DNA of 40,273 nucleotides, from assembly GCA_947459365.1 (NCBI GenBank), contig CANHDG010000004.1, positions 1 through 40,273 on the forward strand, in the 5' to 3' direction. Source of the stretch: Saprospirales bacterium (GTDB taxonomy: Bacteria > Bacteroidota > Bacteroidia > Chitinophagales > Saprospiraceae). Position numbers and translations under genes: made by a program. Positions 9,243 through 11,123 of the stretch are shown here, piece by piece. Each line of letters begins with the position of its first letter. Position 1 is the stretch's first letter. The notes under the pieces were generated by a model that searched no databases, was not told the DNA's origin, and was given only the letters and a program-made list of their open reading frames with translations.

Positions 9243-9725
9243 TTAAGGGTGCACAGAAATACTGGTGCTACTTTTCACCTCCGTCATCACAAAATAACTC
9301 TGCACCCGGCCGATATTATCTAAAGTCGCTAATTTTTCTTTTACAAAACGTTGGTAGGCATCCATATCGGTTACCACTACTTTCAACAAATAATCAAATG
9401 CACCCGCGATGTGGTAGCACTCCATTACCTCCTTCAACTGCAAGACGGCTGTTTCAAATTGCTGAATATAATCCAGGTTGTGCTCTTTGAGCGACACATC
9501 ACACATGACCAACAGCCCTAAGCCTACTTTCTTCCGATTCAGAACGGCCACGTACCGATCAATATAGCCCTCCTTTTCCAAGCGCTTGATGCGCTCAAAG
9601 ACAGGGGTGGTGCTTAAATGCAGCTGCTCTGCCATTTCCTTAATCGTCCTTTTGGCATTGGTCTGCAATAATTCCAACAATTGCCGATCCAGCTCATCCA
9701 GCTGAACCGTATTTTTTTCCACCAC
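9243..9725 (-). CDS. Lrp/AsnC family transcriptional regulator
   Basis: 160 residues: N-terminal helix-turn-helix (LDELDRQLLELLQTNAKRTIKEMAEQLHLSTTPVFERIKRLEKEG, with the recognition helix near 35-50) and a C-terminal RAM/ligand-binding domain (AGAFDYLLKVVVTDMDAYQRF). These proteins form octamers and respond to amino acids. The start is GTG (9725 or 9722); an in-frame TAA lies four codons upstream, so no ATG start is possible. It is divergent from a gamma-lyase gene, and the region between holds a long palindrome and a promoter for each direction. By analogy with Lrp-type regulators next to methionine gamma-lyase genes, it probably regulates that gene and itself; this is inference. Confidence 0.93.
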   Translation of the reverse strand: MVEKNTVQLDELDRQLLELLQTNAKRTIKEMAEQLHLSTTPVFERIKRLEKEGYIDRYVAVLNRKKVGLGLLVMCDVSLKEHNLDYIQQFETAVLQLKEVMECYHIAGAFDYLLKVVVTDMDAYQRFVKEKLATLDNIGRVQSYFVMTEVKSSTSISVHP

Positions 9726-9740
9726 AGCGTATTTTTAGTT

Positions 9741-9770
9741 TATAATTTAGAAATTATTTCTACAATTATA
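9741..9770. promoter_or_regulatory. Long nested palindrome, candidate Lrp operator
   Basis: The inner arms TAGAAAT (9748-9754) and ATTTCTA (9756-9762) are perfectly complementary around one T. The outer arms TATAATT (9741-9747) and AATTATA (9764-9770) are also perfect. It lies between the lrp -7 element and the lrp start codon, a position suited to autorepression. Confidence 0.55.
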
Positions 9771-9778
9771 CAAATATA
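9771..9778 (-). promoter_or_regulatory. -7 promoter element for lrp
   Basis: On the - strand this reads TATATTTG, an exact TAnnTTTG match, 46 nt upstream of the lrp GTG and directly abutting the palindrome. No clear TTG -33 is present at the usual distance. Confidence 0.45.
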
Positions 9779-9807
9779 AAGAAAAATAATCCATACATAG
9801 AATATGG

Positions 9808-9840
9808 TTTGGAAATTTTTTATATTTTTTTTCATCTTTG
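9808..9840 (+). promoter_or_regulatory. Promoter of the gamma-lyase gene
   Basis: TTTG (9808-9811), 21-nt T-rich spacer and CATCTTTG (9833-9840; one mismatch to TAnnTTTG). Transcription would start near 9847, downstream of the ORF track's start at 9804, which supports ATG 9864 as the true start with a short leader of about 17 nt. Confidence 0.45.
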
Positions 9841-9863
9841 TGGATTATTATACACCACCACGT

Positions 9864-11123
9864 ATGAAAAAACAGCTTCAGCCCGAAACCCTCATGATGT
9901 CACACGGCTACAACCCTGAATGGTCAGAGGGTGCCGTGAAATGTCCCATTTTTCAGACATCTACTTTTGTTTTTAAAAAAGCCGAACAAGGCAAGGCCTA
10001 TTTTGAGTTAGCTTATGGACTTCGCACCCAGGAGGCGGATGAATCTCAGGGGCTTATTTACAGCCGATTGAACAATCCAGACATGGAAATCCTGGAGGAG
10101 CGCCTCAAATTATGGGATGGTGCAGAGGCTTGCGCCGTGTTTGAAAGTGGAATGTCTGCAATCACCACCGCCTTGTTTGAGTTTCTGCAACCCGGAGACC
10201 TGTTGCTTTTCAGCAATCCTCTTTACGGCGGAACCGATCACTTTGTCCACCATGTTCTGACAAAATGGGGGATCACCGTTCGTGGTTTCCGGCCGAATGC
10301 AACCAGGGAAGAAATTGTCGAAATCGTTGAATCCAGCGGAAAAAAAGATCGTTTGGGTATGATCTTGATTGAGACACCGGCCAACCCGACCAATGCATTG
10401 ACCGATATTGCTTTGTGCAAATCCATTGCCGACCAATACAGCAGCTCAGGTCGACAAGTAGTGGTAGCGGTAGATAATACTTATATGGGCCCACTATGGC
10501 AACATCCTTTGCAACATGGAGCCGACTTGGTACTTTATTCTGCTACCAAATATATTGGTGGACACAGTGATGTGATTGCAGGCGCTTGTTTGGGAAATAT
10601 GGAACTCATTCAGCGCATCAAAGTACTTCGCACCTTTTTGGGCAATATGATCGCACCACATACTGGTTGGCTATTGCTTCGCAGTTTGGAAACCCTAAAA
10701 ATCAGGATGGAAAAGCAAGCCGAAAATGCCCAAGTAATCGCCAGCCGACTCTCCCAACACCCCAAAATAGCAAAGGTCTTTTACCTAGGACTGCTAACCC
10801 CAGAAGATAGCGTGAACTACGAGGTCTACCACCGACAGTGTTCCTCCCCAGGAGCAATGATTTCATTTGAGGTCGTAGGCGGCGAGCACGAAGCCTTTAC
10901 CTTCCTGAACCACCTTCAAATCGTCAAATTGGCCGTTAGTCTGGGCAGCACCGAATCGCTGGCGCAACACCCTGCCTCCATGACCCATGCAGGGGTAGCA
11001 CCAGAAGATAAAATTGCTTACGGAATCACCGATTCCCTCGTGCGCTTATCCGTAGGGGTAGAGAATGCAGAAGACCTCTGGTGGGACCTGGAGCAAGCAT
11101 TGGAACAGATCCAAAACGTCTAA
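9864..11123 (+). CDS. PLP-dependent Cys/Met metabolism enzyme (methionine gamma-lyase / cystathionine gamma-synthase type)
   Basis: 419 residues from ATG 9864. Fold type I PLP enzyme of the trans-sulfuration family: YSRLNNPD (phosphate-binding Y-S-R), ESGMSAITTALFEF, the NPLYGGT segment, IETPANPT, VDNTYMGP and the Schiff-base lysine in LYSATKYIGGHSD (K229 in this numbering). Possible reactions are gamma-elimination of methionine to methanethiol, ammonia and 2-oxobutyrate, or gamma-replacement. Sequence alone does not decide between them. The insertion LRTQEADESQG before YSR marks a subclade. The T-rich N-terminal extension in the track (MVWKFFIFFF) overlaps the promoter and is rejected. The divergent lrp gene suggests amino-acid-responsive control and a catabolic role. 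Confidence 0.9.
   Translation: MKKQLQPETLMMSHGYNPEWSEGAVKCPIFQTSTFVFKKAEQGKAYFELAYGLRTQEADESQGLIYSRLNNPDMEILEERLKLWDGAEACAVFESGMSAITTALFEFLQPGDLLLFSNPLYGGTDHFVHHVLTKWGITVRGFRPNATREEIVEIVESSGKKDRLGMILIETPANPTNALTDIALCKSIADQYSSSGRQVVVAVDNTYMGPLWQHPLQHGADLVLYSATKYIGGHSDVIAGACLGNMELIQRIKVLRTFLGNMIAPHTGWLLLRSLETLKIRMEKQAENAQVIASRLSQHPKIAKVFYLGLLTPEDSVNYEVYHRQCSSPGAMISFEVVGGEHEAFTFLNHLQIVKLAVSLGSTESLAQHPASMTHAGVAPEDKIAYGITDSLVRLSVGVENAEDLWWDLEQALEQIQNV

Follow-up and report, generated by a model that had tools for sequence, protein, structure and literature searches.

The window, a 40,273-nucleotide stretch of a contig from a Saprospirales bacterium, contains two divergent genes, lrp and a gene for a PLP-dependent enzyme, separated by a gap of 138 bp with 21% GC (Table 1). 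The lrp product matches PF13404 (AsnC-type HTH) and PF01037 (Lrp/AsnC ligand-binding domain), both above cut-off, and its best solved relative is E. coli Lrp (2gqq, E value of 6e-32), with a full-length match. It fails the Lrp equivalog model NF008370 (133.6 bits versus a cut-off of 233). The source genome carries four Lrp/AsnC genes, namely, the adjacent lrp and three paralogues. The start of lrp lies in tandem GTG codons (9720-9725), and GTG 9722 is more likely than GTG 9725 to be the initiation codon because the ATG-GAA-AAA of relatives aligns with the second GTG.

The enzyme acts in Cys/Met metabolism according to its domain (PF01053). An initial annotation, made from the DNA letters, had called it a gamma-lyase. 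This name was too specific, since the protein scored below the cut-off of the methionine gamma-lyase model TIGR01328 (375.7 versus 549.7 bits) and passed only the broader model NF005455 (541 bits versus a cut-off of 504). Its best solved relative is 5ijg, and the YGCT of the Citrobacter methionine gamma-lyase (2rfv) reads YGGT in the window enzyme. The protein is thus a member of the cystathionine gamma-synthase family and not a proven methionine gamma-lyase, and we use "lyase" hereafter as a family-level name.

Table 1. Genes, promoter elements, and predicted Lrp-type sites at the lrp/lyase locus (window coordinates; scores are for the motif trained without the window unless indicated)
Feature	Position	Strand	Basis or score
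lrp, Lrp/AsnC-family regulator	9243..9722 (start GTG 9722, or 9725)	-	Pfam PF01037, PF13404
Nested palindrome (site 1 plus outer arms)	9741..9770	.	Sequence
Predicted Lrp-type site 1, TAGAAATTATTTCTA, perfect 7-1-7 palindrome	9748..9762, centre 9755	.	12.5 bits; other-genera motif, 13.1 bits
lrp -7-like box, TATATTTG	9771..9778	-	Sequence; fits TAnnTTTG (PMC9723704)
Predicted Lrp-type site 2, AAGAAAAATAATCCA	9779..9793, centre 9786 (+31)	.	12.0 bits
Lyase -33 element, TTTGG	9808..9812	+	Sequence; TTGG kept in genus relatives
Weak predicted Lrp-type site 3, TGGAAATTTTTTATA	9810..9824, centre 9817 (+62)	.	4.3 bits; other-genera motif, 5.1 bits
Lyase -7 box, CATCTTTG	9833..9840	+	Sequence; TTTG kept in relatives; start inferred at ~9845
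Weak predicted Lrp-type site 4, TGGATTATTATACAC	9841..9855, centre 9848 (+93)	.	4.4 bits; other-genera motif, 3.2 bits
PLP-dependent Cys/Met metabolism enzyme, cystathionine gamma-synthase family	9864..11123	+	PF01053

The initial annotation had pointed to two nested inverted repeats in the gap, and both pairs of arms are indeed present in the sequence. The inner palindrome has the arms TAGAAAT and ATTTCTA around a central T (9748-9754 and 9756-9762; centre, 9755), and the outer arms TATAATT and AATTATA (9741-9747 and 9764-9770) are centred at 9755.5. The repeats lie, as had been claimed, between the -7-like box of lrp (read leftward, 9778-9771) and its start (9725/9722), and 37 nt separate their end from the lyase -33 element, in agreement with the ~40 nt given previously. 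The position of the lrp -7-like box is not conserved, as several relatives have it nearer to lrp, abutting site 1. A perfect 7-1-7 palindrome of any sequence occurred in 4.3% of dinucleotide shuffles of the gap, and the whole window contains four. Perfect 15-mer palindromes with AG..CT ends were found in 0.035% of the shuffles, and the exact nested arrangement, a pattern defined post hoc, was found in 0 of 4,000. By itself, the symmetry is mildly unusual and constitutes weak evidence; the comparative evidence is decisive.

Searches with both proteins yielded a first set of 46 distinct divergent lrp/lyase pairs, and motif discovery was performed on 41 of their gaps, the window being excluded. 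The unconstrained run produced the layout AG-N9-CT with A/T between, which is that of the E. coli Lrp consensus YAGHAWATTWTDCTR (PMC5554404). Scoring relied on a palindromic motif that was seeded with the Lrp-like word TAGAAAATTTTTCTA and trained without the window; the unseeded, unconstrained run reached the same core. Forced-palindromic discovery from random seeds was discarded, as it returned an A+T-rich TTT..AAA pattern and only the unconstrained run gave AG-N9-CT. The initial annotation had named recurrence of the palindrome in orthologous lrp/lyase gaps as a check, and the AG-N9-CT core is conserved there. The nested operator of the initial annotation is therefore retained in its core but not in its outer arms, which we rejected as operator parts: at orthologous sites, each flanking position holds ~0.05 bit, which makes the arms incidental and places them outside the conserved motif.

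When applied to the gap of the window, the motif ranked sites 1, 2, 4, and 3 highest, in that order, and these top four sites are spaced by exact 31-bp steps, i.e., three helical turns. A motif built from other genera only selected the identical top four. The four-site score was 33.2, compared to a maximum of 14.8 in 5,000 shuffles. With site 1 held fixed, its 31-bp partner was reproduced in 0 of 5,000 shuffles, showing that the partner sites remain significant. Site 1 matches the E. coli Lrp consensus at 13 of 15 positions. Site 3 overlaps the lyase -33 element in a register strongly used in relatives, and site 4 coincides with the inferred lyase start and has a left half that recurs in genus relatives. 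A palindrome arising by chance in A+T-rich DNA, for which the 4.3% of shuffles could be invoked, is scarcely credible given the exact 31-bp ladder and its conservation over loci; we consider this explanation refuted by the comparative tests.

The position of the palindrome between the -7 box and the start codon of lrp, and its ability to pair, could also suggest that it acts as RNA in the lrp leader, as a hairpin, an attenuator, or a riboswitch. We rejected this very improbable explanation, as the leader folded no better than shuffles (z of 0.07) and had no Rfam match of any weight. Moreover, the conserved feature is the spacing of multiple sites over the entire gap and not a stem.

The phasing extends across loci. 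The score autocorrelation over the 41 gaps peaked at 31 and 30 bp and then at 62, 71, 61, 93, and 41 bp. To allow for the shared ancestry of relatives, a motif from the genus of the window was applied to 23 loci belonging to other genera, and the peak at 31 bp persisted with a z of 57 (shuffle limit, 8.1). A pair of sites phased by 30 or 31 bp (P < 0.01) was detected in 35 of 42 first-set gaps and, with the motif frozen, in 58 of 65 later gaps, counts that are inflated by the relatedness of the loci; many later loci share a family with training loci, so that they count as new loci but not as wholly independent lineages. In six of the 65 later gaps, the partner of lrp is a remote member of the enzyme family (27 to 30% identity); with these left out, 52 of 59 gaps were phased. 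P values for single loci have a floor of ~0.0025 set by the shuffles.

The array may be read by a protein other than the product of the adjacent gene, for example, by a product of the remaining three Lrp/AsnC genes in the genome, as site preferences could be similar within the family. We regard this as improbable, since the array is present with an adjacent lrp and nearly absent without one: no phased pair was found at 37 lyase genes lacking an adjacent lrp, and the frozen motif found one at 18 later lyase genes lacking a divergent lrp (1 of 55 for both sets). Furthermore, scoring was possible for two of the paralogues, L002 and L004, and neither had a phased pair upstream. The only lyase gene that had a phased pair and no detected adjacent lrp belongs to a locus (L218) that may end before lrp. 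Three alphaproteobacterial plasmids carry copies of the enzyme, none of them adjoined by an annotated Lrp.

We also searched genomes with the fixed phased pattern. In the source genome, it matched once, at the gap of the window. A control pattern also matched once, so the uniqueness of the phased pattern is weak evidence. Within the genus, 11 of 42 genomes contained the pattern, and 7 matches, including that of the window, adjoin an lrp homologue by coordinates. At two loci of this genus (L138 and L139), lrp retains the phased pair without the lyase gene as its neighbour, and several hundred bases away follows the next open frame, which resembles a metallo-hydrolase. Six lyase-less lrp homologues of Bacteroidota (L023, L026, L028, L039, L041, and L045) have 30/31-bp phased pairs upstream (P = 0.005), and the translations of their divergent neighbours resemble adenosylhomocysteinase, PEP synthase, alanine dehydrogenase, and a PLP decarboxylase.

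The ladder keeps a fixed register with the lyase -7 box. With the final base of this box as reference, site centres clustered at -125, -84, -53/-54, and -22/-23 and, less often, at +8, and a site at -55 to -51 was present in 45 of 65 later gaps, compared to 2.2 expected. With the -7 box taken at -12 to -5 relative to the transcription start (PMC9723704), sites 1 to 4 of the window fall at about -90, -59, -28, and +4 of the inferred lyase start, and a site at about -59 recurs more constantly over loci than any other feature. Relative to the inferred lrp start, sites 1 and 2 fall at about +12 and -20. Among 63 lyase promoters with one clear -7 box, the expected -33 position was occupied by an Lrp half-site in 42 and by TTG in 10. 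The lyase promoter of the window keeps TTTGG at -33, whereas orthologous promoters mostly have the half-site there.

Direct computation established the motif and the exact phasing, showed that the phasing is conserved and depends on a neighbouring lrp, and placed it in register with the lyase promoter. As the best explanation, to which we assign a probability of roughly 0.85, the four-site ladder would be bound and wrapped by the adjacent Lrp-family protein, most simply as an octamer, with lrp repressed and the enzyme gene controlled through a ligand-dependent shift. Four 15-bp sites 31 bp apart present the same face of the DNA, to which four dimers, most simply one octamer, could bind while wrapping the gap; the full-length match to E. 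coli Lrp makes the octameric state plausible. Binding should repress lrp because sites 1 and 2 overlap its inferred promoter and start. At the enzyme gene, the strong sites are upstream (about -90 and -59) and the weak ones are at about -28 and +4. Most likely, an amino acid ligand would move the complex between a state in which the upstream sites are held and the promoter is open or helped and a state in which the core promoter is covered and closed. The initial annotation had proposed a single Lrp operator that represses lrp and switches on the lyase gene. Very probably, the palindrome does serve the adjacent Lrp-family protein as an operator, in a position from which both divergent genes could be affected, but it is one of four sites rather than a lone one.

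The direction of lyase control can be read in several ways. The upstream sites would fit activation, the core-promoter sites would fit repression, and a ligand-driven shift would fit both; with the lyase -33 element and start region overlapped by sites 3 and 4, activation fits no better than repression or a ligand-dependent switch. With the same array and protein, Lrp could therefore be a pure repressor of both genes, covering both core promoters at full occupancy and being released by an amino acid, without any activation. We hold this to be possible but less probable. It agrees with the overlaps of sites 3 and 4, with the half-site at -33 in the promoters of relatives, and with the Lrp-type regulator PA2577, which represses its divergent gene (PMC8707732). 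However, the strongest sites, including the most constant one, lie upstream of the lyase promoter, and the divergent target of Ah-BarR is activated (PMC10201364). More speculatively, the ladder may be fixed across Bacteroidota (-125, -84, -53, -22, and +8), with one Lrp site in place of the -33 element, such that the target promoter would rely on a wrapped Lrp complex that replaces or blocks the sigma contact, and a ligand would shift the complex along the ladder; we consider this generalization rather unlikely.

The ladder-binding regulator proposed here belongs to a known type of system, the local regulators of the Lrp/AsnC family, with BarR and MdeR as the closest precedents. A regulator gene that diverges from a target gene of amino acid metabolism is found in the window, at the 46 distinct first-set loci, and at 65 later loci, and the 15-bp semipalindromic sites (AG-N9-CT) are phased on one DNA face by 31-bp steps; site spacings of two or three turns have been described in the family (PMC2995911). 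Divergent regulators of this local kind include MdeR, BkdR, and PutR (PMC8707732). Ah-BarR and Sa-BarR of Sulfolobales are Lrp-type regulators divergent from a PLP-enzyme gene, in their case an aminotransferase gene, with 15-bp semipalindromic sites on one DNA face of the shared gap (PMC10201364). One bound octamer of Ah-BarR wraps the divergent gap, with self-repression and activation of the divergent PLP enzyme (PMC10201364), and a similar wrapping may occur in the window. The two BarR systems differ in being archaeal, in having sites spaced by two (some by three) turns instead of a uniform 31 bp, and in having a known ligand, beta-alanine, and experimental tests, whereas the ladder of the window is predicted from sequence. 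In Pseudomonas putida, MdeR is a local, methionine-responsive Lrp-family regulator divergent from mdeA, a PLP-enzyme gene of sulfur amino acid metabolism (cited in PMC8707732). The comparison covers the gene layout; mdeA encodes a methionine gamma-lyase, whereas the window enzyme is below the cut-off of that model. E. coli Lrp, the closest solved relative, shares most of its consensus with site 1 but is a global regulator, whereas the window protein is below the Lrp equivalog cut-off and the phased pattern occurs once in the genome, as does the control pattern.

In our literature searches, we found no studied Lrp operator for Bacteroidota. Our results provide a precise, testable operator map for an Lrp-type regulator conserved in this phylum, in which the palindrome is one rung of a ladder held in promoter register over many genera, with the same layout in about a hundred related loci. 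Spacing of this exactness opens models of Lrp action by helical phase and wrapping to direct tests, and further local Lrp targets can be sought with the motif.
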